A stretch of 64,000 bases of DNA from Amycolatopsis pithecellobii (GTDB taxonomy: Bacteria; Actinomycetota; Actinomycetes; Mycobacteriales; Pseudonocardiaceae): NCBI RefSeq assembly GCF_009707865.1, contig NZ_WMBA01000014.1, positions 1-64,000 on the forward strand. Reading direction: 5' to 3'. A model generated the notes under the pieces. That model had not been told where the DNA came from, ran no database searches, and saw only the letters and a list, made by a program, of their open reading frames with translations. The position numbers and the translations under genes are program-made. Below, in pieces: positions 6,014 through 41,872 of this stretch; position 1 is the stretch's first letter; each line of letters begins with the position of its first letter.

Positions 6014-6730
6014 TCATTCATGCTGGTGGTAGTGATCTTCCAGCGCTGCAATGAGTTTCGATGCCTTTCCCGACATGGCGGCATCAAGGAGCAGCAGGTG
6101 GCGGGCAGCGTGGTCCTGACTGGCGGACTGACCGCGCCGCAACAGCGGGATCACCATCAGCGACAGCAAAGGCTCCTGGCTCTTCCACGCATCGAACAGC
6201 TTGCTCCGAGGCTGGTGCCCCATCAGCGTCGCATGAAAGGACCGATCCAGGTCCAGCAGTTCGTCCAGGTCGTCCGGCACGCGCAGCCCGCGCATGCGTT
6301 CGGCTGTATCGCGTAGCTCCCGCTCGACCGATGCCTCAAGGGGAAGCTGCGTGTGCCGGGCCGCGCGCCCCTCGAGAACAGCAAACACCTCACCGATCTC
6401 GATGACGTCGTCGTCGCTGAAGTAGCGCACTCGATGCCCGGAACCGGCGACGAACTCGACGAGCCCGGTCGAAGCCAAGCGAGTGAGTGCTTCACGGATC
6501 GTGCCCCGGCTGACCGAAAAGTCCTCGGCGAGCCGCGTCTCGACCAGATGACGGCCCGGGTCCAGAGTCCCCCGGGTGATCTCCCGGCGAAGGCGCCGCA
6601 CAACTTGGTCCACGAGGGTGTCTCGCCTCGCGGTGGGCGGCGCCAGGGTACGTTCCAGCGTCGGCTCAGCGCGGTGAGACGGCCGGTTGCCCAAGACGTT
6701 GCCTCCATTGCGCGTAGGACTTCGCCGCAA
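6014..6730 (-). CDS. GntR-family transcriptional regulator (FadR/FCD subfamily)
   Basis: A 238-residue DNA-binding regulator. Residues about 35-105 form the GntR winged helix (LVDQVVRRLRREITRGTLDPGR, then VSRGTIREALTRLASTGLVE), followed by an alpha-helical FCD ligand-binding domain with the expected His residues (LDRSFHATLMGH, DHAARHLL). It is encoded just upstream of, and in the same direction as, the peptide importer, and most likely controls it in response to a carboxylate or amino-acid-like ligand. A TATACT element at 6772-6777 (minus strand) could be its -10 box. Confidence 0.9.
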   Translation of the reverse strand: MRRSPTRNGGNVLGNRPSHRAEPTLERTLAPPTARRDTLVDQVVRRLRREITRGTLDPGRHLVETRLAEDFSVSRGTIREALTRLASTGLVEFVAGSGHRVRYFSDDDVIEIGEVFAVLEGRAARHTQLPLEASVERELRDTAERMRGLRVPDDLDELLDLDRSFHATLMGHQPRSKLFDAWKSQEPLLSLMVIPLLRRGQSASQDHAARHLLLLDAAMSGKASKLIAALEDHYHQHE

Positions 6731-6820: not shown

Positions 6821-7999
6821 TCAACTCCTGAACAGAGCCGCGGCACCGATGAGCAGAAGTACCGCGATCGCCAGGAACGGAACCGCGGTACCGGCGGTGT
6901 AGAGCCAGGCGGCCAGCACAGGGCCGACAGCGAAGGCAACACCCGCGGCAGCCGCTATGGCACCCGCGGTGCGGGTGTGCCGCGGCTCGTTGTCGGCCCG
7001 CGATACGAACTCGTAGCAGGACGGCAAGGCGCAGCCAATCCCGATGGCGGCCACGATGGCCCCGATCAGAATCCACGGCAGGGTTCGCGCGAACGCGAGC
7101 GGCAGGACGCCCGCGAGGGTCAGGGCCAGCCCGGCTTGCAACATCCGGCCGGCCGGTAGCGCCGGCCGGGACATGGTGACCAGTTGGGCCAGCAGAAACG
7201 GTGCGCTCCCCGCGACCAGCACCCACGCGGCGGTCCGGCCCGCATCATCGCTGGAGAGGCCAAGCCGGTCGGTGAGCAGAAACCCGGCGGTGACCTGGGT
7301 GGTCGCGACGAACAACAACAACGACGTGATCACCAGCAGATACGGCCAAACACCGCGGACGAATGGCCCCCACGACGATGACGAACGCTGCTCGTAATTC
7401 GTCTGCTCGCCGTGGTCCATGCGCGCCACCAAAGCGGTCGCCACGGCGAGCGGAGCCAGAGGCGCCAGCAGCAGGACGATCAGCCCATGCGCGCTGGTGA
7501 TCCCGTCCAGCAAAGGTCCGGCGAGGACACCGAAACCCTGGGCCGCGGTGATCACGGCGGCGGCACGACCCCGCTCGCCGGCAGCGGTGGAATCGGCGAG
7601 CACGAATGCGGGCCCGGAGACCGCGACGGCCGCCATGGCGAGGCCGAACAACACGCCTCGCGTCAGCAGCACACCGGCGAAACCCACCCAGCGGCTTCCC
7701 GGACCCCAGCTCACGATCAGGGTGAACACGACCGAGCTCAGCACGATGCCGATCAGCCCGGCGACCAGTACGCGCCTGCTGCCCCACCGGCGCGCCGCGA
7801 AGGTCCACAGTGGATTGGAAAGCAGGAAGACGCAACCGGATACCGTGATGACCAAGCCCATCCACAGCTTGTCGACGCCGAGACGAACAGCCAGCGGAAG
7901 CAATTCGGGAAAAACCGATTGCTGTGCGGTGTAACCGAACGCCATCGCCGCGCCCACCAGCGCGAAGCGTGCGGCGGGTCGCGTTCCCAGGCCGGTCAT
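6821..7999 (-). CDS. MFS transporter, probable product exporter
   Basis: A 392-residue membrane protein with about 12 hydrophobic helices and the MFS layout of two six-helix halves separated by a hydrophilic loop (around RMDHGEQTNYEQRSS). It is the last gene of the cassette that starts with the acyl-AMP ligase at 14742; its ATG overlaps the condensation-gene stop by four bases. That coupling suggests it exports the product of the cassette. MFS membership is clear, while substrate and direction are inferred from context. Confidence 0.87.
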   Translation of the reverse strand: MTGLGTRPAARFALVGAAMAFGYTAQQSVFPELLPLAVRLGVDKLWMGLVITVSGCVFLLSNPLWTFAARRWGSRRVLVAGLIGIVLSSVVFTLIVSWGPGSRWVGFAGVLLTRGVLFGLAMAAVAVSGPAFVLADSTAAGERGRAAAVITAAQGFGVLAGPLLDGITSAHGLIVLLLAPLAPLAVATALVARMDHGEQTNYEQRSSSSWGPFVRGVWPYLLVITSLLLFVATTQVTAGFLLTDRLGLSSDDAGRTAAWVLVAGSAPFLLAQLVTMSRPALPAGRMLQAGLALTLAGVLPLAFARTLPWILIGAIVAAIGIGCALPSCYEFVSRADNEPRHTRTAGAIAAAAGVAFAVGPVLAAWLYTAGTAVPFLAIAVLLLIGAAALFRS

Positions 8000-9288
8000 A
8001 CGGCGAGGGCGAGCACGTCGGACAGCCGTGTGTCCGGCGTGGTGATGAGCTGATCCAACGACGACAGCATTCCCTCCTGGTGCCGGGCGAGCTGAAATTC
8101 GTCGTAGAGCCGGGAATTGACTTCGTACTCCAGCAGCAGGTCGCGGGTCGCCTCGCCGTAACAGTTAACGCGGAAGTTCGACGCGGGACCGGTTGCGAGG
8201 ACACGGAACTCCGACTCGCAACCGGTGAAATGGGCCTGGTCCCCGAAGGCGATCACGTTGACGAACGTGCGCAATGTCGGGGAATTGGGCACCTGGTCCA
8301 GGTGGGCTCGCTGGTGCCTGATCGCCTCACCGAGCCGCTCGCCCACCTGCCCGAGCAGATCGGTGAACGTGCGCTCCGACCGGACATCGATGCGCAGCGG
8401 CAACTCGCTGGCCAGGTTCGCCGGAGTCTTCACCGCGGCGAGCGTTGATCTGTTGGCGGCCAGCAGGCCGATCACGACGTCCGGTGAGTCCGTCAGAACG
8501 CTCAACCGGCATGCCGTGATCGCCATGACCAGCACTGGCCATCGCACGCCCGTCCGGGCGGACAGTTCGAGGAACGCGGCCCGCGACTTGTCGGAGACAG
8601 GAGCCACCGAACGCAACGGGCTGGGCCCGGCCGGTAGGTCGTGCGAGGCGAAACCGGACCACGAGACAGGCGTGGACAAAACGTGCCGCCAGTAGTCCGC
8701 ATCCCGCTGCGCCCGTGGCGAACTTGCGTAGGCGTCGTCCTCAGCCACCAATTGGGCAAGGCCGGCAAATCCGCCAGGTGGTGCTGGTTCACCTGTGACG
8801 AGGGCGTTGTAGTGCTGTGCGACGCGAAGCAGATATCGATGCGCACCATAGGCATCCAGCGCAATGTGGTGGTACCGGAAAAAGAGGAACCATTCACGCT
8901 CACCCGTTTTGATCAGCGTTTGCGAGCACACCTGGTCGCCCCCGCGTAGCTCGAATGGCACGGCGAGCGCGGATTTCATCCAGTCGATCGCCGCGGCCTC
9001 GTCCGGCAGGTCGACCGACGACAGCGGAACGGGGCCCGCCGCGACGACGGTCTGCCAGGGTTGCCCGTCCTGCTCGTGGAAGATCACCCGCAGCGCTTCG
9101 GTTTCCGAATATGCGGCGGCAATTGCGGCTGTAAGCGCTTTCTCACGGAGACCACCGGTGAGCCGGAAATACCCGCCGCAGTTGTACTGCGGGTTGGCGG
9201 GATCTTCGTGGTGCGCGATCCACTGCTGCTGCTGGGCGGGCAGCAGCGGCAAAGGAGTGTCCGGTGCGGGAATGGCCATGCTATTCAC
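7996..9288 (-). CDS. Free-standing condensation-domain acyltransferase
   Basis: A 430-residue single condensation domain (NRPS C / PapA / WES superfamily fold). The catalytic motif is HHIALDAYG near residue 140, matching HHxxxD but with Ala in place of the usual Gly after Asp. The N-terminus (LPLLPAQQQQWIAHHEDP) matches the C1 core. No adenylation or thiolation domain is attached, so it should take an acyl chain from the free carrier protein encoded immediately upstream and pass it to an amine or alcohol. The GTG start overlaps the carrier-protein stop by eight bases; an ATG nine bases further in is an alternative. The acceptor is unknown. Confidence 0.85.
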   Translation of the reverse strand: MNSMAIPAPDTPLPLLPAQQQQWIAHHEDPANPQYNCGGYFRLTGGLREKALTAAIAAAYSETEALRVIFHEQDGQPWQTVVAAGPVPLSSVDLPDEAAAIDWMKSALAVPFELRGGDQVCSQTLIKTGEREWFLFFRYHHIALDAYGAHRYLLRVAQHYNALVTGEPAPPGGFAGLAQLVAEDDAYASSPRAQRDADYWRHVLSTPVSWSGFASHDLPAGPSPLRSVAPVSDKSRAAFLELSARTGVRWPVLVMAITACRLSVLTDSPDVVIGLLAANRSTLAAVKTPANLASELPLRIDVRSERTFTDLLGQVGERLGEAIRHQRAHLDQVPNSPTLRTFVNVIAFGDQAHFTGCESEFRVLATGPASNFRVNCYGEATRDLLLEYEVNSRLYDEFQLARHQEGMLSSLDQLITTPDTRLSDVLALAV

Positions 9289-9553
9289 GTTCGCTGCGAA
9301 TGAAATCGGTCAGGAACGACGCGAGCTTGCGGATCGACGGGTAGTCCCAGACCACGGTGACGTCGGGAAGGACGTCGAACGCGTCCTCGATCTCGGTGAT
9401 GACGGCGAATGCCGCCACGGAGTCGAGACCGTAGTCGCTCAGCGGGCTGTCCGGGTCGATTTCGGTCTCCGGTCGCTCGGCATACCGCGCGACGGCCTTC
9501 GTGAGCCATGCGATCATGCCCTCGACCGTGGGCACCTCATGCGTCCTGGTCAT
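9281..9553 (-). CDS. Stand-alone acyl carrier protein
   Basis: A 90-residue phosphopantetheine-binding carrier protein. The attachment serine sits in YGLDSVAAF near residue 45, flanked by the expected helices (MIAWLTKAVARY before, VITEIEDAFDV after). The ATG chosen has GAGG six bases upstream; a second ATG four codons earlier lacks such spacing. It is encoded between the two dehydrogenase-like genes and the condensation gene, so it probably carries the fatty acyl chain while that chain is activated, desaturated and transferred. Confidence 0.9.
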   Translation of the reverse strand: MTRTHEVPTVEGMIAWLTKAVARYAERPETEIDPDSPLSDYGLDSVAAFAVITEIEDAFDVLPDVTVVWDYPSIRKLASFLTDFIRSERE

Positions 9554-9590
9554 CAAACACCTCATCCTGTAGTCGCTGGAACATGGCGGG

Positions 9591-11300
9591 TCAGGCCTCG
9601 AAGACGGGATGGCCGGACAACCCGAGGTCGATGTTGCCGGCGCACCGGTCGAGGAGTTCGGTGAACAAGCGATCCTCGACCTTGCCGGGTAGCTGCCCCG
9701 GTGAGCGGCCGCCGGCAAGCTTGGTCAGCGCGGCTACCGCCCAGGCCGACAACCAGTCGCCACTGCGCTCCCTGTTGTGGCGCCACGTCTCCAGACACAC
9801 ACCCGCCAGCGACAGGCGAGCGTAGCGGTCCACGATCCGGGCGGCCGACGGCGGGGCGTCCACACCGAAGTCCGATGTGGACAGTGCGGTGGCCGCGGCG
9901 CGAAGTTCTCGTCCTTCCGTGGCAAGGGACTCCGCCGGCGTCCGGATCAGCCGCCCGTCAGGTGTGGTGTCACCGGTCAGCGCGGCCAGCCCCGTCGACA
10001 GGCCGCCGAAGAGATGGTCGCGTCCGTTGCCGGTCACTCGCAGCTTGGCGAATTCGAGCGGCGGAAGGTCGGCCCCGACGGCGAACAAGTTTTCGTCCGC
10101 GGCATCTTCGGTACCCCAGGATCGCCGGGCGAGCAGCGGAAACTGGGGCAACAGGGTCATCCGGCAAGCGGCCCTGCTGATGTGGACCACGCCGATCGCC
10201 CGGATGTCGCGCATGAGCTTCTGGAAGATGGCGGTGGGTCCCGCACGCAGGTACGAGTGGGCTCCGAGGATCATCGCCAGTTGATTCATGGCGTCCAGGA
10301 GCAGGGTCGGCAGCTGGTACTTGACCGTGGCGGCGTGCAGCGCACCCTCACCCGGGTAGACGTGCAACGACCGTGCCGCCGAGGTCGAGAAGGCGTCCGC
10401 GGCGACCAGCGTGACGAAGACGTCAACCAGTTTGGACTTCAGATGCGGTAAGTCGATCGCCGCTTTGCCGTACAGGGTCCGGCCGAGCAGATGCCTGACC
10501 GTGCAGCGCAGAGCGGTGTCGACGACCGTGGTCATCATGGCCGGCAACGCGATCCTGGTCAGCTGGAACGCTTTCATCGTGTTTTCGGTGCCGCGTCCGA
10601 GGCGGCCGAGCACCCGGTCCTCGTCCACTGGTGCCGCGTGAAACGCGATGCCACCGAGATGGACGCCACGCAGGCCGACCGTGCCGAACCTGGGCAGTGA
10701 CCTCACCCGTGCGCCGGTGAGGTCGGGACCTCGCAGCAGCAACTGCGAATGTGCCTGGGCCGGCTGGGTTCCGCCGGTCGCCGCGAACAACACCAGTGCT
10801 TCGGCGCGGTCGACGTCGGCGATGACCTCCTTGCGCCCGTCGAGAATCAGCCGGTCGCCGGCCGGCCGCGCGGTGAACTCGGCGGCGGTGAATTCGTTGC
10901 CGTGCTCGAGTTCGTGGTAAGCGCAAGCCAGCCGGTGACCGGCGAGGAGCGTTTCGGCGACGTAGCGCCGCTGGTCGTCGTCACCGGCGAGCCAGACACA
11001 AACACTGGCCAGCAGCGAAGGGGTGAGGTAACCGGCGTTGAGGCCCGGATCGCGACGGCTCACGGCCCGGCCGACGGCGATGAGGTCGTCGAGGCGCGTG
11101 AAACGACCGCCGAGCTCGTACGGTACCAGTTCGGCGTTCATCCCGAACTCGTCGAGCGCCCGCTCTCCAGGCGCGAACCTCTCACCGCGCTCGTCGACGG
11201 CGAGAATTTCCTGAAATCCCAACGGGTTCGCTGAGTCGAAGGGATCGCCGAACTTCCGCTCCAGCACGGCGACCCGGTCGAGTGCGGACGCGGTCACCAC
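9591..11300 (-). CDS. Acyl-CoA/acyl-ACP dehydrogenase-like flavoprotein (first of pair)
   Basis: A 569-residue protein with an acyl-CoA dehydrogenase core (N-terminal helices, a mid beta domain with AYHELEHGNEF, a C-terminal helical domain with LRAGPTAIFQKLMRD) and a C-terminal extension of about 150 residues. At the position where many family members have the catalytic Glu of an EGT/EGS motif it reads VVHISRA, so it may lack the general base and act as a partner subunit. GTG GTG starts follow AGGAGG with good spacing; the second overlaps the upstream stop as GTGA. Neighbours suggest it works on an acyl chain bound to the small ACP. Confidence 0.82.
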   Translation of the reverse strand: MVTASALDRVAVLERKFGDPFDSANPLGFQEILAVDERGERFAPGERALDEFGMNAELVPYELGGRFTRLDDLIAVGRAVSRRDPGLNAGYLTPSLLASVCVWLAGDDDQRRYVAETLLAGHRLACAYHELEHGNEFTAAEFTARPAGDRLILDGRKEVIADVDRAEALVLFAATGGTQPAQAHSQLLLRGPDLTGARVRSLPRFGTVGLRGVHLGGIAFHAAPVDEDRVLGRLGRGTENTMKAFQLTRIALPAMMTTVVDTALRCTVRHLLGRTLYGKAAIDLPHLKSKLVDVFVTLVAADAFSTSAARSLHVYPGEGALHAATVKYQLPTLLLDAMNQLAMILGAHSYLRAGPTAIFQKLMRDIRAIGVVHISRAACRMTLLPQFPLLARRSWGTEDAADENLFAVGADLPPLEFAKLRVTGNGRDHLFGGLSTGLAALTGDTTPDGRLIRTPAESLATEGRELRAAATALSTSDFGVDAPPSAARIVDRYARLSLAGVCLETWRHNRERSGDWLSAWAVAALTKLAGGRSPGQLPGKVEDRLFTELLDRCAGNIDLGLSGHPVFEA

Positions 11301-12976
11301 GGAGAGTCCTCCTGATCGCGGGCAAAGAGGGTCAGACGCTCATCGACTGTCAGTGCGTGCTCGGCCAGAGTGGCGAAGACCTCGTCATCTCCGTGCCTGC
11401 CTGGCACCAGCCGCTCCACGACCAGTTCCAGGCAGCCGCGCAGCAAAGTCCATGTTCGGCCGTCGTCGGGGCGACTCGCGAGGATCAACAGGCACGCGGC
11501 GCCCGCGACGCACAGCTCGTAAAGCTCGGCAAGGGCGAAGGCGTGTGCCCCGGGCATGCCGGAGGCGGGGCGGTAAGCCTCGATGGCGGCGTGGGTCCGC
11601 GCGCAGGCGGCTTCGAAGTCCGCCAGCACGTGCGTCAGGCGGCCGCCGCTGTCCAGCTCACGAACGCGGTGCAGCAACCCCGGCACGGCAAGCGTCAGGC
11701 CGCACCCTGACGCCGAGATCAGCGTCAGTTTGTCATAGGCGATTTCGGGCAAGGGACCGGTGACCAAAGTGGACAGCCGGTCGGCTGCCGACGGGTCGAC
11801 CGCACCGTATCCGCGTCCCAGTCTGGTGAACTGACTGATCAGCAGTTGCCGGTTCACCAGTGTGCTGCCGTCGAAAATGGCGACCAGCCGGTGGTCGCGT
11901 TCCAGCTTGGCGAACTCCCCGTGCTCGAAGACGCCGGTCAGGTAGCCCCGGGCACCCAGCAGTTCGGCGACCTGCTCGATCGCCTCCTGCACGATCGTCG
12001 GGACAAAGGCCTTGCACACCGCGGAAAACACACTCATCTCGCGGGGCAGTACGTGAATGGCACGGGTGGCGACGGCGGTGACCGCCTCGGCCAGCAACAG
12101 TCGCGCGGCGGCACGTCCGATCGTGTCGCGTGCCAGCGGCATCTCAGCCACCGGCCTGCCATACAACCGGCGCCGGCGGGCGAACCGCGTCGCGAGGCGG
12201 ATCGCGTGGTCCCCGGCCCCCAGCGACAGCGCGGCGCAGGCGGTGCGGGTGAGCTGAAGCGCCTTCAACACCGTCTCACCGGCCTTACCGGGTTCGCCGA
12301 TCAGGGCGGTGGCGGGGAGCGGGGCGTCGTGGAACGAGAGACCACTGATGTCGGCGCCGCGGATCCCGTGTGTCGGGATCTTGTCCAAGGGCTCGACGTG
12401 GCGCGGAGCCAGTTCGCGCTTGTCGACCAGGAACAGGCTGAACCCGCGTGGACCGCCCTCGGCCGAGGTGCGTGCCAGCACGCATGCCAACTGCGCCCGG
12501 GTGGCGTTGTTGATCAGCCACTTCGTCCCGTCGAGCCGCCAGCCGTCGGTCGTCCGCTCGGCGGACACCTCGCCCGCGAGAAGGTCGCTGCCATGGCCCT
12601 GTTCGGTGAGGCCCCAGCAGACGATGGCACCGTCGATGATCTGCCGCGCGAGCCACTCGGCCGTCTCCGGCGATCCGGAGACCCACACCGACACCGCGCC
12701 GAGGAAAGTCTTGCCGTGCGCGATGGCGACGGTGAGATCCTGGCGCGCGACGGCCCGCAGCATGGCCACCACCTCCGGGAAAGCAACCAGACGTCCGCCG
12801 AACCGAACCGGCACGTAGTACGCCGGCAGGCCGGCGTCGTCCAGCGCCCGGCACGCTGCTGTGGGGATGACCTCGGCCGCGTCCAGCCGGGCGAGCTCTT
12901 CCGGGGCGAACGGTCCATCAGCGCGCCACTGTCCGAGCATCTCTTCCAGCGCCGTCACTGCCGAACCGGCGCTCAC
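11294..12976 (-). CDS. Acyl-CoA/acyl-ACP dehydrogenase-like flavoprotein (second of pair)
   Basis: A 560-residue acyl-CoA dehydrogenase-family protein. The middle domain shows the FAD/substrate loop CWGLTEQGHGSD and the strand W-L-D-GTKWLINNA; the C-terminal domain has ARGYLTG followed by IFDGSTLVNRQLL, where Asp takes the place of the usual catalytic Glu. A C-terminal extension resembles that of the neighbouring paralog. The GTG start overlaps the stop of the ligase gene (GTGA). Two adjacent dehydrogenases with an acyl ligase and an ACP recall the fatty-acyl tailoring genes of ramoplanin and enduracidin clusters, where such enzymes are thought to introduce double bonds. Confidence 0.84.
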   Translation of the reverse strand: MSAGSAVTALEEMLGQWRADGPFAPEELARLDAAEVIPTAACRALDDAGLPAYYVPVRFGGRLVAFPEVVAMLRAVARQDLTVAIAHGKTFLGAVSVWVSGSPETAEWLARQIIDGAIVCWGLTEQGHGSDLLAGEVSAERTTDGWRLDGTKWLINNATRAQLACVLARTSAEGGPRGFSLFLVDKRELAPRHVEPLDKIPTHGIRGADISGLSFHDAPLPATALIGEPGKAGETVLKALQLTRTACAALSLGAGDHAIRLATRFARRRRLYGRPVAEMPLARDTIGRAAARLLLAEAVTAVATRAIHVLPREMSVFSAVCKAFVPTIVQEAIEQVAELLGARGYLTGVFEHGEFAKLERDHRLVAIFDGSTLVNRQLLISQFTRLGRGYGAVDPSAADRLSTLVTGPLPEIAYDKLTLISASGCGLTLAVPGLLHRVRELDSGGRLTHVLADFEAACARTHAAIEAYRPASGMPGAHAFALAELYELCVAGAACLLILASRPDDGRTWTLLRGCLELVVERLVPGRHGDDEVFATLAEHALTVDERLTLFARDQEDSPW

Positions 12977-14742
12977 GACCCAGCCCCTTCGGAAACGAGG
13001 CTCTGCAACCTGGCCGTCAGGTCCAGGTACAGCGGGGTGGTCTCGTCCTGCAGGAAGCGGCGGCACATTTCCGCACGCTGGATCTTGCCGCTGGTGGTGC
13101 GGGGCACCCCGCCAGGACGTAAGAGCAGCATGCCGTCGAGTTCGACCCCGAACTCCCTGGACACCATCAACCTGACGGAGGAGACAAGTCCGGCGAACTC
13201 CTCCGCTGGCGTGCCGGCCTCGACTTCATGAGCCAGCACGAGCAGTTCGCCGGCGGTGGGGTGGGACACCCCGAACGCGGCACCGACCCTGGCAGCCAGT
13301 CGCGGCTGCTGCGCCCGCGCCGCCTCTTCGATGTCATGGGGGTGCAGGTTCATACCCCGGACGACGATGATTTCCTTCATCCGGCCAACGATGTACAGCT
13401 CGCCGTCATCCACGAGCCCGAGGTCGCCGGTGCGCAGGAAACGCCTTTCACCGTCGGCGGTCATGCCCCCGAACGTGGCCTCCGTCAACTCCGGTGCGTT
13501 CCAGTAGCCTTGGGCAACGCTACCGCCCCGGACCCAGATTTCCCCGATCTCGCCTTCGGCGAGCACGGACCGGGATTCCGGGTCGACAATGCGGACATCC
13601 ACGTCATCACAGCGGCCGCAACTCACCAGGGAATGACCGGCGGCGCCCGCGGGCGAATCCGGCTTTCTGACCACCGGGCGCCTGCGCGCCGAACCGGTCA
13701 CCAGCAGCGTTGATTCCGCCAGTCCGTATGCCGGTGCGAAGGATTCGGGACGAAACCCGGCGGTCTTGAAGCGAGTGGTGAAACGCTCTACGACTGTGGC
13801 GGAAACGGCCTCGGATCCGTTCAGGGCCACTTCCCACCGGGACAGGTCGAGCCCGGCGAGCTGCTCGTCCGTCACACGGCGGGTGCACAGCTCGTAAGCG
13901 AAGTTCGGTGCCGCGGCGACCGCGATCCCCAGCTCGTCGATCATGCGGAGCCACAGGTACGGGCGGCGCAGGAAGGTCATCGGGTCCATCGCGACCGAGG
14001 TACCGCCGAGGATGATGGGCGTGAGCAACTGCCCGATAAGGCCCATGTCGTGGTAGTTGGGCAGCCAGCCACCGACGCGGACCCCGGGTGCGAGATCCAG
14101 CGCTCGCGCGATGGCGGCGATGTTGGCCAGGAGGTTTCCGTGGCTGAGCATCACGCCCTTCGGCAGACCGGTGGAGCCCGACGTGTACTGGAGCACGGCA
14201 AGGGTGTCCGCGTCGTTGTCGGCCAACTCGTCGTCGGCCAGGCCGGGATGCTCACTGTGCTCGACGTCGAGAACCGGCAGTGGCAAGCCCTCCTCGCCGA
14301 GCCAGGCCGACACGTGGACCGCGGACTTCGAGGTGGTCAGGACGGCCGAGACCCCCGCGTCGACGGCTATCGCGGCGATCCTGCGGCGCTCGTGCGCGAA
14401 GCGTCCCGGAACCGGGACGGGAACGGCGATCCTGCCGCTGTAGAAGCACCCGAAAAGCGCGCCGGTGAAGGAAACGCCAGGTGGCAGGCACAACAGCACC
14501 CGGTCGCCGGGTTCTCCCTGAGCCGACAACCACTGGCCGACCCGTCTCGCCCGGAGATCGACCTCGGCCGCGCTGAACGATACCGCTCCCCCGCTGCCGG
14601 CGTCGTATTCGCACAGCACCGGAGCGGCAGGCCCCTCCGAGACCCGCCGCCTCAAGGCCATCTCAAGGCTTGACAGCAGAGGGTCTTTCTCACCGACATG
14701 TTCGGGACTTGTTTTTCCGTGTGGCGGAACCACAATCGCCAT
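12973..14742 (-). CDS. Fatty acyl-AMP ligase (FAAL)
   Basis: A 589-residue adenylate-forming enzyme predicted to activate a fatty acid with ATP and load it on the ACP. It shows the P-loop-like YTSGSTGLPKGVMLSHGN (about residue 195), the FAAL/long-chain signature YHDMGLIGQLLTPI, the YGLAEST motif, RTGDLG and the C-terminal lysine motif TTSGKIQR. YHDMGLIG and gene context favour a FAAL over a CoA ligase. It is the first gene of the cassette ligase-dehydrogenase-dehydrogenase-ACP-condensation-MFS, with stop/start overlaps between most members. Confidence 0.9.
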   Translation of the reverse strand: MAIVVPPHGKTSPEHVGEKDPLLSSLEMALRRRVSEGPAAPVLCEYDAGSGGAVSFSAAEVDLRARRVGQWLSAQGEPGDRVLLCLPPGVSFTGALFGCFYSGRIAVPVPVPGRFAHERRRIAAIAVDAGVSAVLTTSKSAVHVSAWLGEEGLPLPVLDVEHSEHPGLADDELADNDADTLAVLQYTSGSTGLPKGVMLSHGNLLANIAAIARALDLAPGVRVGGWLPNYHDMGLIGQLLTPIILGGTSVAMDPMTFLRRPYLWLRMIDELGIAVAAAPNFAYELCTRRVTDEQLAGLDLSRWEVALNGSEAVSATVVERFTTRFKTAGFRPESFAPAYGLAESTLLVTGSARRRPVVRKPDSPAGAAGHSLVSCGRCDDVDVRIVDPESRSVLAEGEIGEIWVRGGSVAQGYWNAPELTEATFGGMTADGERRFLRTGDLGLVDDGELYIVGRMKEIIVVRGMNLHPHDIEEAARAQQPRLAARVGAAFGVSHPTAGELLVLAHEVEAGTPAEEFAGLVSSVRLMVSREFGVELDGMLLLRPGGVPRTTSGKIQRAEMCRRFLQDETTPLYLDLTARLQSLVSEGAGS

Positions 14743-15093: not shown

Positions 15094-15465
15094 CTACGGC
15101 CGCGGCACCGTTGGGGACACGATGTCTCCGGCCAGTGGAGCGACCGCGGCGAGGATCTGGTCCACCAGGTTCTGCGGCACCCCGGCATCGAGCAGTGACT
15201 CCGACAGCAGTGTGGCCACCCGGTCGAACTGCGCCTGCCCGATACCGCGACCGCGATGGGCGTCCCGCATGCTCAGACCCGCATAGTGGTCCGGACCACC
15301 CAAGGCTCCGGCGAAGAACTCGACCTGTTTGCCCTTCAACCGGTTCAGGTTGGCACCGGCGAAGTAGGGCGCGAGCTCACTGTCCGCGAGGACGCGGATG
15401 TAGAACTCATCGACGACCGCACTGAGGGCCTCCTGGCCACCGATCTGGTCGTAAATGCTGGTCAA
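15094..15465 (-). CDS. Truncated hemoglobin (group I, GlbN-like)
   Basis: A 123-residue 2-over-2 globin. It begins TSIYDQIGG, has the B10 region VVDEFYIRVLAD, the glycine-rich GGPDHY turn, and the proximal histidine in MRDAHRGRGI. Group I truncated globins are known to oxidise nitric oxide to nitrate. The start is a TTG with GGAG eight bases upstream, and it overlaps the DivIVA-gene stop as TTGA, which fixes it. It is third in an operon with a flavohemoglobin, pointing to nitric oxide or oxygen chemistry. Confidence 0.9.
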   Translation of the reverse strand: MTSIYDQIGGQEALSAVVDEFYIRVLADSELAPYFAGANLNRLKGKQVEFFAGALGGPDHYAGLSMRDAHRGRGIGQAQFDRVATLLSESLLDAGVPQNLVDQILAAVAPLAGDIVSPTVPRP

Positions 15466-16097
15466 GGTCGTCTCCGATCCCGTTGGGTGAATTGTTCCGG
15501 CAGCTGTGCGAGCTTGTCGACTTCCTGAGCGAACGCGTCCGACGCCGCGTGCAGCTGGACCTGCACGGCATGACAGAAGGCGCGCAGCCACGCGAGCCTG
15601 CGTTCCATCTCCTCGATTTCCGCGGCATGCCGGTCGTCGCGGGAGGTGTGCTGCGCCCGCGCCACCTCCTGAGCCGCGATTTCCGCCTGCTGTTCGGCAT
15701 CCGACAGCAGTTCCATTGCCTGGCGACGGGCATCGCCGGTCAGCCTGCGGCACTGCGCCTCCGCCTGCGCGATGTACGCCTCGGCCTGCAACTGCGCCTC
15801 GGACAGCAGGTTCACCGCCTCCACGTCCGGCTTCCTCTGCAGCCGGCCCGGGTCGACGTTCTCGCCCTGGCTGCGGTACCAGTCACGGAGCCGGTCGATC
15901 TCCGCGCGCAGCCGCGCGTTCTCCGCCTCGCTTGCCGCGATCTCCTCGGCCAGCCGGTGCTGGAACAGTTCGACCTCGTCGGGGTCGACACCGCGGCGGC
16001 CCAACGGGGTCCTGCTGAACGTGATGCCGCGGATGCGCTCGGGGGTGAGCACCCGCCGGACCGCGGGTGGCCGCTGGTCACCTGCCTGAAGTGTCAT
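15462..16097 (-). CDS. DivIVA-domain coiled-coil protein
   Basis: A 211-residue protein whose N-terminus has the DivIVA pattern LTPERIRGITFSRTPLGRRG followed by DPDEVELFQHRLAEE, then a long charged coiled coil (about residues 45-200) rich in Ala, Glu, Gln and Arg. DivIVA-type proteins mark poles and septa or scaffold other proteins at the membrane. Here it is encoded between two globin genes, 11 bases after the flavohemoglobin gene and overlapping the truncated hemoglobin gene by four bases. A role in positioning or scaffolding the globins is inference from the operon. Confidence 0.82.
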   Translation of the reverse strand: MTLQAGDQRPPAVRRVLTPERIRGITFSRTPLGRRGVDPDEVELFQHRLAEEIAASEAENARLRAEIDRLRDWYRSQGENVDPGRLQRKPDVEAVNLLSEAQLQAEAYIAQAEAQCRRLTGDARRQAMELLSDAEQQAEIAAQEVARAQHTSRDDRHAAEIEEMERRLAWLRAFCHAVQVQLHAASDAFAQEVDKLAQLPEQFTQRDRRRP

Positions 16098-16108
16098 GCT
16101 GGGTCGTC

Positions 16109-17269
16109 CTATCCCCTCTTCAGAACGTCGATCCCGGCCCCCACCGGGTCCTGATAACCGCTGAAGTCCTCGCAGCGGACGCGTTCGGCGCCGATGCCGG
16201 CCGCGTAGAGCAGCTCACAGGTCCCCGCCACCATTGCCGGTGAACCGCATACGTAGATTTCCTGATCCGCCCACGGCCCGTACCGCACGGCGATCTCCCC
16301 GACCATGCCCCTTGCCCCGGAGAACCGGACGTCGTCGGACACGACCGGGGTCACCCGCAGGCTCGGCAGCGCGTTGTCGAGCGCCCGCAGCGCCGGGGCG
16401 TCGTAGAAGTCCCGCGCCGTACGGGCGCCGAGAAACAGATGTGCCTTACGGGGCACCGGTTCCTGGGCGATCTGGCCGAGCAGCGCCTTCATCGGCGCGA
16501 ACCCGGTGCCTCCGCAGATCAGCACGATGTCGCGGCCATGGTCGAGCGTGAGCCGCGACCCGACCGGGGATCCCAGCCGCAGCATGTCACCGGTGGTGAT
16601 GCCTTGGACCAGCGCCGAGCTGACCGCCCCACCATCGACCATCCGGACGTGCAGTTCGACGAGGTTGTCCTCGCGCGGTGGCCGGGCGGGCGTGTAATAC
16701 CGCCAGATCCGGGGCCGTAGCTCGGTTTCCACCGCGATGCTCTGCCCCGGCAGCCAGGTCAACGGATGATCCGTGCGCACGGTCAGCACCGCGGTGTCGA
16801 GGGTGCGCCGCTCGTGTCCGAGGACCTCGGCGTTCCACCACGGCGGTGAACTGCGCTCGTCTTCGCCGGCGGCGGTCGTCATGACGTCGGCCACCAGCTT
16901 GTACGCGGCGGTCCAGTCGGCGGCCAGGTCCGGCGTCCACTCGTCGCGCAGAAAGTGTTCGAGCGTGGCGAGCAACGCCTGTCCCACCGCGGGATAGTGC
17001 TCGCTGGTGACCGCGAACTTGCGGTGGTCACGCCCCAGTTGCCGCAGGAACGGGACCGCGCTGTCGAGGTCGTCGACGTGGGACACGACCCGGCCCAGCG
17101 CGCGGACCAGCTTGTCCCGCTGGGCCGACATGCCGGCGGGAAACATCTGGCGCAGGTGCGGATTGGCCAGGAACAGCGTCGAATAGAAGAACAATGGCAC
17201 TCCGCCGCCGAAATCCGCGACCGTGTTCCAGCTGCTGCGCAGCCGAGCGGTATCCACCGTCGTGCTCAT
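16109..17269 (-). CDS. hmp: Flavohemoglobin (nitric oxide dioxygenase)
   Basis: A 386-residue fusion of a globin domain (about residues 1-135) and a ferredoxin-reductase-like FAD/NAD(P)H domain. The globin part shows the distal Gln context MSAQRDKLVRAL and the proximal His in RDHRKFAVTSEHY; the reductase part shows RYYTPAR (FAD), LICGGTGFAP (pyridine nucleotide) and YVCGSPAMV. Such proteins convert nitric oxide to nitrate with O2 and NAD(P)H. The ATG with AGAAGGGAA directly upstream was chosen; the frame extends 36 codons further without family similarity. It heads the operon with the DivIVA and truncated hemoglobin genes. Confidence 0.92.
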   Translation of the reverse strand: MSTTVDTARLRSSWNTVADFGGGVPLFFYSTLFLANPHLRQMFPAGMSAQRDKLVRALGRVVSHVDDLDSAVPFLRQLGRDHRKFAVTSEHYPAVGQALLATLEHFLRDEWTPDLAADWTAAYKLVADVMTTAAGEDERSSPPWWNAEVLGHERRTLDTAVLTVRTDHPLTWLPGQSIAVETELRPRIWRYYTPARPPREDNLVELHVRMVDGGAVSSALVQGITTGDMLRLGSPVGSRLTLDHGRDIVLICGGTGFAPMKALLGQIAQEPVPRKAHLFLGARTARDFYDAPALRALDNALPSLRVTPVVSDDVRFSGARGMVGEIAVRYGPWADQEIYVCGSPAMVAGTCELLYAAGIGAERVRCEDFSGYQDPVGAGIDVLKRG

Positions 17270-17353
17270 TTCCCTTCTGGGACCCCCGGGGGCAAAGCGG
17301 TTGCGCAGCAGCGTAAGCGGCGGGCAATTTGCATTCAAGGGTTTGCCAGATCC

Positions 17354-17368
17354 GGAAAAAATTTTTCC
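17354..17368. promoter_or_regulatory. AT-rich palindrome upstream of the globin operon
   Basis: The 204-base gap between the flavohemoglobin start and the TetR stop contains the palindrome GGAAAAAATTTTTCC, 85-99 bases upstream of the flavohemoglobin start, and a second small one, ATGCGTCGCAT, at 17429-17439. The gap is much more AT-rich than its surroundings. Either could be an operator for a nitric-oxide- or oxygen-responsive regulator; no known consensus was matched. Confidence 0.35.
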
Positions 17369-17473
17369 TTGATCCATACCAACATGGCCAAGGGCAACGT
17401 AGTGGTACAGACCTTTAATGAAGGTGATATGCGTCGCATTTTTCGGGGCCGCGCCGATCTTGCGGTCGGAGCC

Positions 17474-31322: not shown

Positions 31323-32252
31323 TCAGCTCACGTCGGCGGTGGTGCGGGGAAAGATTCCGCCTTGCGCGGCGGTGTCGCGGGTGCCGAGACCAAACCTTTC
31401 CGGCAGTGCCCGGCTGTCCGGCAGGCGCAGCCACAGCCGCAGAAGGTGCCGGCGGCGTTCCGGCTCCGGAAAGTCCTCGAAGGCGGTCCGCGAGTGCAGG
31501 ACGCTGTAATTGGAGAGAAACTGGATGTCCCCCGGCGCGAAGTCCATATCGAGCCGTACCCCGTCCTCGGCGGCGATCTGCTGCATGAGTTCGAGCGCCT
31601 CTTCCGCCGCCGCGCTGAGGGGCTGGACCCCGTCGAAGCGCTGGGCCTTGTCGATGAGCGGTTGGGAGATGTACGCGCTCAGCCTGCCGCCGTACGTCGT
31701 GTACACCGGCGATTCGTAGTACGGGATGGTGCTTCCGGGCGGCTGTTCGCCGCGGTAGTCGAACGCATAGCTTTCGTGCAGGAGTGCGACGAGATCGGGC
31801 CGGCGACGTACCAGTTCATTGTGGACGGTCACCGCGCTGGCGAGGGTACTCGGCCCGCCGGCCCGCGCGGGACGCAGGCACAGGAGGCCGACCGAATCGG
31901 AGTGGTCGGTGTGGTAGTAGAGACGGTCGTTCGTCGCGTACCCGCGGACCGTCGGTTCCGCGAAGTCGGCCCCGGTGTCGCGGACATGGCCGATCAACTC
32001 GCCTGCGGCGTTCTGCGACACCGGCCGGCCGAGCCGGCTTCCCAGCAGCCGGAAGGCCTGGGTGGCACGTTCTTCGGACCACCGGTCCACCGGCAGTCCA
32101 CGGATCAGGAAGAACCCGCGGCCGTGCTCCAGCTCCCGGCCGAGGTCGCGCAGCACGTCACCGAGCGAGGCAAGATCGACCTCGGTGGCCGGCAGGTCCG
32201 GCCGGCGGTCGAGCTCCCGCTCGAGCACGAGGATGTCGAGCTCGTTGGTCAT
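31323..32252 (-). CDS. TauD/TfdA-family Fe(II)/2-oxoglutarate dioxygenase
   Basis: A 309-residue non-heme iron oxygenase. The facial triad is visible as YHTDHSDS (His-x-Asp) and the distal His in YSVLHSRTAFED, followed by the 2-oxoglutarate-binding Arg in RRRHLLRLWLR. These enzymes hydroxylate small acids and often start catabolism of sulfonates, phenoxy acids or betaines. The ATG has AAGGAGACGAG directly upstream; the longer frame overlaps the decayed IclR gene on the other strand. It is divergent from that IclR remnant, which was probably its regulator. Confidence 0.87.
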   Translation of the reverse strand: MTNELDILVLERELDRRPDLPATEVDLASLGDVLRDLGRELEHGRGFFLIRGLPVDRWSEERATQAFRLLGSRLGRPVSQNAAGELIGHVRDTGADFAEPTVRGYATNDRLYYHTDHSDSVGLLCLRPARAGGPSTLASAVTVHNELVRRRPDLVALLHESYAFDYRGEQPPGSTIPYYESPVYTTYGGRLSAYISQPLIDKAQRFDGVQPLSAAAEEALELMQQIAAEDGVRLDMDFAPGDIQFLSNYSVLHSRTAFEDFPEPERRRHLLRLWLRLPDSRALPERFGLGTRDTAAQGGIFPRTTADVS

Positions 32253-32304
32253 CTCGTCTCCTTGTCTTCGGCTGGCGCCGGGAGTCGGTGCCAGTGCCGA
32301 CGCT

Positions 32305-32961
32305 ATGACCGCGATGTCGTCACGAGTGAGTATTCGCGCCCGCTCAGTGGGAAAGCTCGATGCCGTCCTCGGCTGACAGGGTGCGCTGACGCTCAGCGAG
32401 ATCAGCCGTGCGTCGGGGATTCCGGTCAGCACGGTGGGAAGGCTGGTGGCGCACCTGGCGAAGGTGGCCGGGCGGCGGAGTGTGATCGGTGCGACGCCGG
32501 TCGGCGACCAGGTTCCGTTGCATGCCACGGCAAGCGGGAAGGTGTTCCTGGCGTTCTCGGAACCGCGCCTGCTGCGAAACACCATCGAGGCGGGCCTGCG
32601 GCGCTACACCCGATGGACCATTGTGGACGGTCGCAGGCTGGCGGCCGCGGTGGCGACCGTCCGGCACATCGGCGTCGCGCATTCCCGCGAGGAACGGCGC
32701 CCGGGGGTGAGTGCGGTGGGGGCGCCGATCATCGTGGACGGGCGGCTCATCGGCACCCTCGCCATCGTGGGTCCGGCCACCACCGACCTTCGCCGCTACG
32801 AACGACGTCTGGTGGCCGCGTCCGCCCGGGTGGCGAGGGGATTTCTGTCGGTGGTGCGCCGGAACTGCGCGGAGGGCGGCACCCGTCTGCCACTGAGTAG
32901 CAACCCGTGCTTGGCACCCGGGGACCCATGGGACGACTGTGGACGCGGAAAACACCCATGA
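32305..32961 (+). pseudogene. Decayed IclR-family regulator
   Basis: Reading one frame from the ATG at 32305 gives SVGKLDAVLG, then a TGA at 32374-32376, then QGALTLSEISRASGIPVSTV, which is the IclR winged helix. The frame goes directly from RLVAHLA to KVAGRRSVIGATPVGDQ and HATASGKVFLAF, which belong to the effector-binding domain; about 70 residues that normally lie between (wing end, linker, first half of the sensor domain) are missing. The stop plus the deletion make a working regulator unlikely. A GTG at 32434 could still give a 175-residue sensor-only fragment. It is placed as a divergent regulator of the TauD gene. Confidence 0.78.
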
Positions 32962-32977
32962 CAGCAAGGGGAGAAAC

Positions 32978-33892
32978 ATGGTTCGGGACACCGCCGAGTC
33001 GGTAGGACTGGACGACGTCGAGCTGGCTTACCGCGTCGTCGGCGACGGACCGGAACTGGTCATCCTGCTCCACGGATGGCCTCAGACTGGTGCGTGCTGG
33101 CGCCATGTCATGGCGCCACTCAGCCGCGGCCGTACCGTCGTCGCACCGGATTTGCGTGGTTACGGTGCCTCGGGGCTGGCACAGTCGGGAGCGTATGACA
33201 AACGCTCCACCGCAGCCGATCTGAGCGGCCTCATCCGGCACCTGGGGTTCTCCTCGGCGGCGGTGATCGGCCACGGCCGGGGCGCCCGCGTCGCGCACCG
33301 GTGGGCCCTCGATCACCCGGCAGAGGTCGATGCGCTGGTGCTGGTGGACATCGTGCCGACCAGGGTCGTCATGAACTCGTTCGACCGCCACTCGGCGAGC
33401 GAGTTGTGGCACTGGTTTTTTCACCGGAACTCTGAGCTGGCGACGAAACTGGTCTCCGGGAATGTCGAGGCGTACCTCCGCTATTTCTTCGCCCGCGTGC
33501 TCGAATCCGGTGCGGTGGACGCGGAAACCTTCAAGCACTACGTCGACGCGTTCAGCGATCCGGGGCATCTGCAAGCGTCCTTTGAGGACTATCGGCCGGA
33601 CTTCTCGACCGATCTTGCACTCGACGAAGCGGATCATGCCAAGGGGCTGCGGGTACAGGCGCCGCTGCTGCTCCTGTGGGGTGCCGAGGGCGGACTCGGC
33701 GGGACCGATGTCGTGCGCATCTGGCAAGAGCACCACGCCGATCCGTCTGCGGTGAGCGGTCATCCCGTCCCCGGCGGTCACTACGTTCCCGAAGAAGCAC
33801 CCCGGGAAGTCGTGCACGCCGTCGAGGCCTTTCTCGGCCAGGCAAGCACCTACGCCAAGCCCAGCCTTCGTGAGCGTGTCTCAAAGTCGTAG
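32978..33892 (+). CDS. Haloacetate-dehalogenase-like alpha/beta hydrolase lacking its nucleophile
   Basis: A 304-residue alpha/beta hydrolase resembling haloacetate dehalogenases and epoxide hydrolases: HGWPQTGACWR oxyanion loop, PDLRGYGAS, and His in PGGHYVPEE. The nucleophile elbow, normally GHDRGAR with the catalytic Asp, reads GHGRGAR here (GGC in place of GAC). Without the Asp the classical reaction cannot proceed, so the protein is either inactive, does something else, or carries a sequence error. The ATG follows AAGGGGAG. It overlaps no neighbour and lies 16 bases after the IclR remnant. Confidence 0.85.
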   Translation: MVRDTAESVGLDDVELAYRVVGDGPELVILLHGWPQTGACWRHVMAPLSRGRTVVAPDLRGYGASGLAQSGAYDKRSTAADLSGLIRHLGFSSAAVIGHGRGARVAHRWALDHPAEVDALVLVDIVPTRVVMNSFDRHSASELWHWFFHRNSELATKLVSGNVEAYLRYFFARVLESGAVDAETFKHYVDAFSDPGHLQASFEDYRPDFSTDLALDEADHAKGLRVQAPLLLLWGAEGGLGGTDVVRIWQEHHADPSAVSGHPVPGGHYVPEEAPREVVHAVEAFLGQASTYAKPSLRERVSKS

Positions 33893-33917
33893 CCGGTTGA
33901 TCCCGCACTCCACCGCG

Positions 33918-34254
33918 TCATTTGTAGGTGTCCCGCGGTTCAAGCCAGTACCAATGCCGACCTTCATGACGCAGGAGGTTTTCAAGCAGAGCAGAGAAAC
34001 TGGTTGCGATTATGGGCGATGAACCAACTATTCCATGTTTTTCATGGATTTGATTCACGCAATTCGCCCGGCGGAACGATCGAAATTGCGTAGTCCGCAC
34101 CCAGGTACAGATCAACGCCTCCGGTCAGCGTGGAGAAATCTACCAGGTCATCAGGCAGTCGATGCTGAGCCCGGATCACAGACATCCCGGCAGGCGGACG
34201 GACGACACAGCGCTCCGTCCGAAATGCCCACTCCAGGAGTTCCTGCCCGGCCAT
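33918..34254 (-). pseudogene. Degraded SMI1/KNR4 (SUKH)-like gene
   Basis: Two out-of-frame pieces can be read on the minus strand. The N-terminal piece (34254-34042) has LPDDLVDFSTLTGGVDLYLGA and YAISIVPPGELRESNP, then stops. A second frame overlapping its end continues with HEKHGIVGSSPIIATSFSAL and RHEGRHWYWLEP, the C-terminal pattern of actinobacterial SMI1/KNR4 proteins. About 50 residues that should lie between are absent. The DNA is lower in GC than its neighbours. SUKH proteins are often immunity proteins of polymorphic toxins, but no toxin gene is seen nearby. Family recognition is by pattern only. Confidence 0.6.
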
Positions 34255-34296
34255 GAAACCGTCCCTCCGTCTGTCACGGCAACAAATCCGGAGGCG

Positions 34297-34962
34297 TCAG
34301 GACCGGCGGCGTCCGAGGCGCCGCACCACGATTTTCTCGGTTCCCGTCCGGTGTGTGTCGAGCTCCTTGAGCAAACGCCTCCGGTCCCCCGCCTTCACCG
34401 CGTCGAGGATGGCCTTGTGCTCCACCACCAGGCGGCGCGTGGTCTCGGGCTCGTACAGGTACATCGAGCGATAGAAATCGGACATGTACCACAACCGCCG
34501 CAGCTCCTGCCGCACCAGCGACAGCGGTGACGCGTCAAAAACCGAGAAGTGGAACTGCTGGTTCAGGCGCTGGAATTCCTCGGGTTCGTCGGCGCGGACG
34601 GCCGCCGTCATCGCGGTGTGCAACCGTCCCATGGCCGCGGTGTCGACGTCGGCGAGGTCCACCGACTTCACCAGTTCGGTCTCCAGCAACCGGCGCATGA
34701 GGTAGATCTCCGCGAGATCCTCACTGTTGAACCGCGCAACGGTGTACCCCGTGTTCGACTTGTGCTCGAGGACACCCTCGGACTGCAGGCGTGACAGCGC
34801 CTCGCGTACGGGGATACGGCTCACCCCCAGCGCTTCCGCCAGCGCGGCCTGCTGCACCTTCTGTCCCGGCAACAGCTCACCGCTCAATACCATCGCACGG
34901 ATCGCAGTGAGACACTTGTCGACACCGGAGCCCGTAGTCACCGCGTCGGCACTCTTGCCCAT
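34297..34962 (-). CDS. GntR-family transcriptional regulator (FadR/FCD subfamily)
   Basis: A 221-residue regulator: winged helix in residues 15-80 (AIRAMVLSGELLPGQKVQQAA, then GVSRIPVREALSRLQSEGVLE) and an FCD helical domain with metal/ligand His positions (FQRLNQQFHFSVFDA; VVEHKAILDAVKAGD). It is divergent from the acyl-CoA dehydrogenase operon across 198 bases that contain a GTATAC-like site. FCD regulators of this type commonly sense carboxylates or acyl-CoAs, which suits the neighbouring genes. Confidence 0.9.
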   Translation of the reverse strand: MGKSADAVTTGSGVDKCLTAIRAMVLSGELLPGQKVQQAALAEALGVSRIPVREALSRLQSEGVLEHKSNTGYTVARFNSEDLAEIYLMRRLLETELVKSVDLADVDTAAMGRLHTAMTAAVRADEPEEFQRLNQQFHFSVFDASPLSLVRQELRRLWYMSDFYRSMYLYEPETTRRLVVEHKAILDAVKAGDRRRLLKELDTHRTGTEKIVVRRLGRRRS

Positions 34963-35095
34963 GCCTTCTCCTCAACGCCGCACGAGGGCTGTTGCCGCAA
35001 GTTGGATAACACTTTGCATCCACATCCTACAGACTCCCCCCGCCGGCGAAAGCCGGGCGCGGCGGATTTCGAGCAGCCACCTTCGGCCTAGATTT

Positions 35096-35115
35096 TGCAT
35101 ACTCCTTGATATACA
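35096..35115. promoter_or_regulatory. GntR-type operator candidate (TGCATAC-n-ATATACA)
   Basis: An AT-rich element with TGCATAC and ATATACA 13 bases apart lies 46-65 bases upstream of the GTG of the acyl-CoA dehydrogenase operon and 134 bases from the divergent GntR start. The same arrangement (TGCATAC..ATATAC) recurs at 43440-43459, and related palindromes occur at 53438 and 58975. FadR/GntR proteins typically bind GTATAC-like half-sites. Confidence 0.5.
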
Positions 35116-35160
35116 GTCGGCCCAAGCCCGGTACGACGCGAAAGTGAGGGGCTGATCGAC

Positions 35161-37334: not shown

Positions 37335-38092
37335 ACGGCAACAGCAGGCTGACCGGCCGTCGCGCCGTCGTGACCGGTGCGGGCCAGGGCATCGGCCGCG
37401 CGGTCGCGGAGCGGTTCGCCCGCGAGGGCGCGAAAGTCACGGTCGTCGACGTCAACGAGGCCGGACTGAAAGAAGTCGTGTCCGCAATCGCGGCCGAGGG
37501 CGGCGACGCGCTCGCAGTCGCGTGCGACGTGACCCGGCGGGACGAGGTGTTCGCGGCCGCGGCACGGGCGGCGGAAGCTTTCGGCCCCGTCGACGTCCTC
37601 GCCTGCATCGCAGGCATCACCCGGCCGGCGATGCTCCCGCAGATGACCGAGGAGCATTGGGACGCGGTGCTCGACACCCATTTGAAAGGCAGCCTGTTCT
37701 GGTTGCAGGCGGTGCTCGGCCCCATGCGTGACGCGGGCTCCGGGAAGATCATCCTCACCACGTCCGCGGCCGGACTGCTCGGCACGATCGGCCAGGTCAA
37801 CTACGCGGTCGCGAAGGCGGGCATGCTGGGCATGACGCGATCGGCCGCCCGCGAGCTCGCCCGCTACGGGATCACCGTCAACGCCGTGGCACCGGCGGCG
37901 TCGACGCCGATGACGCACACCATCCGCACCGACGAGCGGTTCGCGGACAAGTATCTCGACGAGGTTCCCCTGCGCCGCTGGGCCGAGCCCGCGGAAGTGG
38001 CCGGCACCTACGTCCATCTCGCCGGCGCTGACGCGGATTACGTGACAGGCCAAGTCCTTTCGGTCGACGGCGGCCGCGCGATGGTGCGCTGA
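37331..38092 (+). CDS. SDR-family oxidoreductase
   Basis: A 253-residue classical short-chain dehydrogenase: cofactor loop GAGQGIGRA, acidic residue after beta 2 (VVDVN, favouring NAD), active-site Ser in TTSAAG and YAVAKAG for Tyr/Lys. The ATG overlaps the ACAD stop (ATGA). It probably oxidises a hydroxyacyl-CoA or an alcohol formed by the Mo hydroxylase that follows. Confidence 0.9.
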   Translation: MNGNSRLTGRRAVVTGAGQGIGRAVAERFAREGAKVTVVDVNEAGLKEVVSAIAAEGGDALAVACDVTRRDEVFAAAARAAEAFGPVDVLACIAGITRPAMLPQMTEEHWDAVLDTHLKGSLFWLQAVLGPMRDAGSGKIILTTSAAGLLGTIGQVNYAVAKAGMLGMTRSAARELARYGITVNAVAPAASTPMTHTIRTDERFADKYLDEVPLRRWAEPAEVAGTYVHLAGADADYVTGQVLSVDGGRAMVR

Positions 38093-38145
38093 CCGCATTC
38101 GCGGTACCCGGTTCCGGATTCATCTCTCGGAGGTCAACGACGACC

Positions 38146-41857: not shown

Positions 41858-41872
41858 GTGCTTCACCCCGCT

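Follow-up and report, generated by a model that had tools for sequence, protein, structure and literature searches.

The question raised by this locus is what a set of genes of the kind that prepares the unsaturated lipid starter of a lipopeptide can make when no nonribosomal peptide synthetase (NRPS) follows it. The stretch of DNA analysed (the window) comprises 64,000 nucleotides of Amycolatopsis pithecellobii (positions 1 to 64,000 of the forward strand of contig NZ_WMBA01000014.1, assembly GCF_009707865.1), and the cassette in question consists of six genes on its minus strand, running from 14742 to 6821, for a fatty acyl-AMP ligase (FAAL), two acyl-CoA dehydrogenase (ACAD)-like proteins (ACAD1 and ACAD2), a free acyl carrier protein (ACP), a stand-alone condensation (C) protein and an exporter of the major facilitator superfamily (MFS). 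We consider it rather probable that these six genes constitute a self-contained, NRPS-free pathway to an exported N-acyl amide, carrying a 2-enoyl or 2,4-dienoyl chain, of a diffusible amine.

An earlier reading of the DNA from its letters and open reading frames (the sequence-only reading) had proposed six co-directional genes with these functions, and the domain matches together with the open frames bear this out, all six frames being intact with a third-position GC content of 0.78–0.86. The FAAL gene (12973..14742, start at 14742; 589 amino acids) matches PF00501 AMP-binding at 3.8e-63, and is followed by ACAD1 (11294..12976), an acyl-ACP dehydrogenase-like flavoprotein of 560 amino acids if read from the GTG at 12976 (the open reading frame reaches 13066), for which both Acyl-CoA_dh_1 (PF00441) and Acyl-CoA_dh_M (PF02770) are above their cut-offs. 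The second ACAD-like protein, ACAD2 (9591..11300; 569 amino acids), matches Acyl-CoA_dh_1 (PF00441) at 1.2e-13, while its middle domain falls below the cut-off. The ACP (9281..9553, ATG at 9553; 90 amino acids) matches PF00550 PP-binding at 1.6e-15 and carries the motif GLDSVAA; the C protein (7996..9279, with an alternative GTG start at 9288; 427 amino acids) matches the Condensation family at 8.8e-41 and contains HHIALDAYGA; and the exporter (6821..7999; 392 amino acids) matches PF07690 MFS_1 at 3.6e-24. The junctions had been described as mostly stop/start overlaps, which is an accurate description: FAAL and ACAD1 overlap by GTGA, ACAD1 and ACAD2 by 4 or 7 bases and C and MFS by ATGA, while ACP and C are separated by 1 base (or overlap, if the upstream GTG is used) and ACAD2 and ACP by 37 bases. 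Amino-acid-activating adenylation (A) domains and further carriers are absent from the unit, and the free C is the sole C domain on its contig (C50), in agreement with the claim that no NRPS modules lie nearby; the length of C50 is put at 127,563 bases, the value given for the contig of the identical protein P0007.

The same gene order had been suggested as something to look for in other genomes, and it recurs in a second genus: locus L009 of Saccharopolyspora spinosa carries FAAL, ACAD1, ACAD2, ACP, C and MFS genes in an order identical to that of the window cassette. Identities between the two copies are 68.7% for FAAL, 69% for ACAD1, 71% for ACAD2, 73% for ACP, 63% for C and 51–60% for MFS. 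Because six genes recur in the same order at 51–73% identity, a chance grouping of unrelated genes is ruled out, and since the value for C lies inside the range of the other five, C seems to be constrained like its neighbours. No further open reading frame of at least 100 amino acids in the window matched L009 at 1e-6, barring wrong-frame and paralogue-type matches, and the flanks of L009, among them PrpD, phosphoenolpyruvate mutase, a ScfR-type regulator and COX1, are unrelated to those of the window. Furthermore, the A (FAAL), ACP and C profiles found no match in L083 and L084, which extend L009 to ~24 kb on each side. The worry that homologous loci might always sit beside NRPS genes is thus not borne out at the one locus that could be read, where no intact NRPS occurs within ~24 kb on either side and a broken fragment alone is present.

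By profile, structure and tree, the C protein is an excised starter-type C domain. RzmA-Cs was its closest relative in the profile search (195 bits); in structure searches of the predicted fold RzmA (7c1l) ranked first by VIA-align and the first C domain of CDA (CDA C1; 4jn3, 5dua) ranked first by Foldseek, while VibH was the nearest relative in neither the profile nor the structure searches. The absence of OaaC from the best 50 VIA-align rows is uninformative as evidence. It had been asked whether the protein might group with inactive or unrelated CoA acyltransferases; motif, profile and structure lend this no support, and the HHxxxD motif (HHIALDA) and the phosphopantetheine-bearing serine of the ACP are both intact. 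The protein differs from starter C domains in two respects, as it is not the first domain of an NRPS and lacks the canonical HHxxxDG. Within the free C group to which it belongs (8 members), the residue after the catalytic Asp is Ala in 7/8, Thr in 1/8 and Gly in 0/8, whereas Gly is found in 23/25 module-linked starter C rows; these 25 rows exclude the rotihibin starter C (L030), for which no match was long enough, and three of them (L044, L047 and L080) have YH replacing HH; one further comparison used 22/25 rows, without these three. Two metagenome relatives, P0132 (HRILLDT) and P0133 (DHLTLDA), stand outside the trees and were assigned to the free C group by 49% and 47% identity, respectively. 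Among 127 C domains of fatty-acid-amide pathways the residue after the catalytic Asp is Ser in 42%, Ala in 36% and Gly in 17%, according to PMC13142362, and HHIALDA fits the fatty-acid-amide motif (D/H)HxxxD(S/A). Additionally, the position equivalent to the chain-gating R148 of RzmA is Ala in the C protein; small residues there accompanied C8–C10 chains in PMC7804268.

The ligase, as judged from its sequence, belongs with the FAALs: FadD23, FadD28 and FadD32 are among the proteins of solved structure related to it in sequence, ranked after entries that bear the names ‘Polyketide synthase’ and ‘Saframycin Mx1 synthetase B’, and FAAL models were among the top matches in an NCBIfam search, with none above cut-off. 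A single phosphopantetheinyl transferase match was found in the genome. In a joint alignment of ACADs longer than 450 amino acids (71/72 ACAD1 and 69/73 ACAD2), the column of the canonical catalytic Glu holds Asp in 71/71 ACAD1 rows and His in 69/69 ACAD2 rows, the Asp–Glu correspondence being visible directly in the alignments and the His correspondence depending on the joint one; a separate count over 73 ACAD2 rows gave His in 71/73, the others being Thr (L073) and a gap (L076). A position in helix G, which we take to be the alternative base site, is Thr or Ser in the ACAD1 and ACAD2 rows. The Asp/His pair is also present in the rotihibin locus and in Corallococcus loci. The pair may represent two enzymes or may form one mixed enzyme, and therefore one or two double bonds may be introduced. 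In PMC9113097, taromycin and malacidin are described with two ACADs and two double bonds, friulimicin and laspartomycin with one double bond, and mechanistic studies of the lipopeptide desaturase pair are said not to have been reported at that time.

The parallel with lipopeptide starters that had been drawn from the sequence is upheld by a comparison set consisting of rotihibin (L030) and the Corallococcus loci, where the same four-gene module occurs. RthH–RthK of rotihibin and Crz3–Crz6 of corallorazine comprise a FAAL, two ACADs and a free ACP in the order seen in the window, and Tar5/Tar6 of taromycin and MlcH/MlcI of malacidin belong to the same kind of lipid-starter module. For rotihibin of Streptomyces scabiei 87.22 PMC8552735 assigns RthH as FAAL, RthI/RthJ as ACADs and RthK as ACP, with a cis-2-decenoyl chain, and for corallorazine PMC11342130 gives a 2,4-dienoyl chain. 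Corallococcus loci L014 and L021 (and L057, which is truncated) match the gene arrangement reported for corallorazine, and we infer that all three are the crz cluster. As in lipid-starter modules, the FAAL, free ACP and ACAD genes of the window are adjacent. A lipopeptide starter C, however, forms the N-terminus of an NRPS module, fused to an A domain and a peptidyl carrier protein (PCP), whereas the window C is a separate protein with no NRPS after it; RzmA starter C and CDA C1 are likewise NRPS parts with an aminoacyl-PCP acceptor and HHxxxDG, in contrast to the free HHIALDA protein. VibH (1l5a) is a stand-alone C protein that joins a carrier-bound acyl donor to a soluble amine, and the window C similarly stands alone with a carrier in its unit. 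Pathways in which a ligase, an ACP and a free C make fatty-acid amides are already known: those of the gut (OaaA, OaaACP and OaaC; PDB 12KH) use a discrete activating ligase, a discrete ACP and a stand-alone, starter-related C, as does the window, which also has no amino-acid A–PCP unit. Both have a residue other than Gly after the catalytic Asp, mostly Ser in the OaaC class and Ala in the window; the available description of the Oaa pathways includes neither desaturase nor exporter, whereas the window cassette has both. Our verdict is that the cassette would function like the gut fatty-acid-amide pathways, yet appears to be made from the lipopeptide-starter module of actinobacteria, together with that module's own starter domain in excised form. 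Among the literature matches listed, none, judged by title and the start of the abstract, fittingly described the six-gene cassette, and the terms ‘condensation domain’ and ‘fatty acid amide’ were not found in the accessible portion of a FAAL review (PMC11837247).

In the proposed pathway a fatty acid would be converted to its acyl-AMP by the FAAL and loaded on holo-ACP, and the ACP-bound chain would be desaturated by ACAD1 and ACAD2, most likely to a 2-enoyl and then a 2,4-dienoyl chain. The C protein would subsequently hand the chain over to a small molecule able to diffuse, most probably an amine or a derivative of an amino acid drawn from primary metabolism, and the N-acyl amide formed in this way would leave the cell through the MFS protein. 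A soluble acceptor is suggested because the unit common to both genera extends no further than the six genes, and because the motif has moved in the same way as in free C enzymes known to use amines.

When GTDB contigs were scanned with an ACAD2 profile, 72 loci were identified, of which 60 contain all four module genes (FAAL, ACAD1, ACAD2 and ACP), some of the remaining loci being cut. Within the sequence covered, a recognisable NRPS reading frame is present in 36/72. A strong C match outside such a frame occurs in 6/72 (L009, L042, L053, L079, L019 and L047, the reading frames of L019 and L047 running off the contig end), a weak C-like match alone in 12/72 (in one of them, L027, the contig end truncates a C), and no C or NRPS match in 18/72. 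In a quick ACAD2 tree, with support from the Shimodaira–Hasegawa-like approximate likelihood-ratio test (SH-aLRT), the window falls in a clade of seven with support 100, set among NRPS-linked rows; within this clade an adjacent free C is known for the window and L009 alone. The relatives in A. pigmentata, Streptomyces NPDC019531 and Streptomyces NBC_01092 are known from proteins alone. Close ACAD2 homologues (E ≤1e-165) were found in 2/390 genomes of the family (its own and G364), in 1/394 of the class (its own) and in 0/392 of Streptomyces, with P0014 as query also giving 0/392 in a near-identical sample. Some of the 72 loci have other surroundings. In L036 (6.6–21.7 kb) the four-gene module is followed by genes for a β-ketoacyl-ACP synthase III, a pre-ATP-grasp protein, an ornithine/diaminopimelate-type decarboxylase, a third ACAD, a multidrug and toxic compound extrusion (MATE) exporter and a C-like protein; by tree and reading-frame pattern L020, L025, L026, L037, L039, L043, L045, L049 and L063 resemble it, the annotation covering L036. 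In L028 of Lentzea (6.4–17.8 kb) a FAAL and ACAD pair lie beside a cytochrome P450, a luciferase-like monooxygenase, a C-like protein and a lipoxygenase, and L031, also of Lentzea, is similar, the annotation here covering L028.

A second group of free C proteins lies beside YcaO genes. Streptomyces glaucescens L042 (2759–10629) and S. zaomyceticus L079 (7354–21647) carry ACAD1, ACAD2 and ACP followed by a free C, as does L053, in which the C frame is broken; YcaO and histidine-kinase genes are present in L042 and L079; L079 has a phosphopantetheinyl transferase gene as well, and L053 one for a response regulator. Neither L053 nor L079 showed a FAAL, although the sequence covered extends well upstream. 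The motif of this group is the canonical HHI[AV]LDGFGQ. Two C trees were made, one quick (SH-aLRT) and one careful, with RzmA, CDA, VibH and OaaC outside both; the later, non-starter C of L030, a long branch in the quick tree, was dropped from the careful one. In the latter the free C proteins of L042 and L079 group as sister to an NRPS C of L016, apart from the window clade, and forcing both free C groups together was rejected by an approximately unbiased (AU) test (p 0.0018) carried out with the quick tree already known. The ACAD2 tree points the same way, its YcaO clade having support 100 among NRPS-linked rows. As judged from these phylogenies, the YcaO-linked free C is of separate origin from that of the window; these loci possibly make a lipidated ribosomal peptide.

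Several observations weigh against the amide pathway proposed for the window. No acceptor gene is present in the unit; L009 is the sole other locus that could be read, and it contains a broken C–A NRPS fragment ~3 kb downstream, which is unreliable because the S. spinosa draft misplaces NRPS fragments according to PMC8788784. For close ACAD2 relatives in two Streptomyces (P0014 and P0016), no matching free C turned up among the candidates scored in the protein searches, which were capped at 7998 each. OaaC (12kh) matches the C protein weakly, at 34.7 bits against the 195 of RzmA-Cs, and the motif has exceptions, as an NRPS-linked C of L038 has Ala after the Asp, the starter C of an NRPS in L061 has Phe (HHILLDF, from 8872, at the expected Gly), and P0132 has HR replacing HH and, going by this substitution, may have lost the usual activity. 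Moreover, the free C rows form one clade, so the motif may have changed just once. As regards the chain, rotihibin, though possessing both ACADs, is reported as mono-unsaturated with a minor −2 Da species. Lastly, the genome has 38 carrier-domain matches and encodes NRPS carriers on other contigs, and therefore the acceptor might be an aminoacyl-PCP supplied in trans: the C protein would then acylate the aminoacyl-PCP of a distant NRPS, and the product would be an ordinary lipopeptide from a split locus. NRPS genes lie on contigs C62, C64 and C33, where C domains are also found (and weakly on C67), PCP-bound amino acids are the normal substrates of starter C domains, and the S. spinosa copy has the broken fragment in its vicinity; yet the unit recurs in two genera with its own exporter and without an intact NRPS, and the motif residue of the free C group has moved toward that of amine-using C enzymes. 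We hold action in trans to be unlikely.

The sequence-only reading had left the product as an amide or an ester. The amide is the more likely of the two, since the nearest relatives of the C protein are amide-forming starter C domains and its Asp-Ala motif resembles that of the fatty-acid-amide class. An SgcC5-like activity, in which the protein would form an ester or transfer the chain to a hydroxyl or a sugar amine, with a lipid ester as the product, seems quite improbable, SgcC5 scoring 46 bits against 195 for RzmA-Cs. It is also conceivable, though less probable still, that the cassette is a decaying relic, a lipopeptide starter module left after NRPS loss. The branch of the C clade is long (0.87), P0132 is without the second His, and S. 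spinosa has possible NRPS debris as well as a draft in which the ACAD2 and MFS frames are broken (MFS in two frames). However, the six window genes are open with the third-position GC content given above, gene order is retained in two genera, the identity of C lies within the range of its neighbours, and an intact S. spinosa ACAD2 exists in the protein database (P0013).

To the left of the cassette lie a GntR/FCD regulator (6014..6730, minus strand and thus co-directional; PF00392, PF07729) and then an oligopeptide ATP-binding cassette transporter, past which the contig edge is reached 6.8 kb from the cassette, and a further gene past this edge is therefore possible. The transporter, and probably the regulator, were rejected as unit members, having no counterpart in L009. 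Directly upstream, genes for a truncated globin and a flavohaemoglobin (15094–17377, minus strand) are 351 bases from the cassette and were likewise rejected, being without counterpart in L009. Beyond the globins, hydrolases and catabolic genes were among the sampled proteins, and 31323–46692 is a probable catabolic block with a TauD-like dioxygenase, an acyl-CoA dehydrogenase, a molybdopterin oxidase subunit, a thiolase-like protein, an AMP-binding ligase and a fumarylacetoacetate-hydrolase-like protein.

A broader proposal, put forward tentatively and with rather less confidence than the pathway itself, is that the enoyl/dienoyl-ACP starter module is portable and left its NRPS context more than once, in the window clade and in the YcaO loci. 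A starter C would thereby have turned into a free-standing N-acyltransferase. Amides formed from free amines and polyunsaturated chains would then make up a new class of compounds in actinobacteria, perhaps joined by ribosomal peptides that carry a lipid, and the amide-synthase motif would have been reached independently of the gut fatty-acid-amide enzymes. If the amide pathway is correct, an unsaturated fatty amide could be produced and exported with no more than six small genes, and a simple product, rather than a large lipopeptide, would reveal the chemistry that the lipopeptide desaturase pair performs. The C protein would furthermore represent a natural case of a starter C turned free amide synthase, of use for engineering N-acylation, and the cassette would provide a genome-mining handle for a class of compounds that NRPS-centred searches may overlook.

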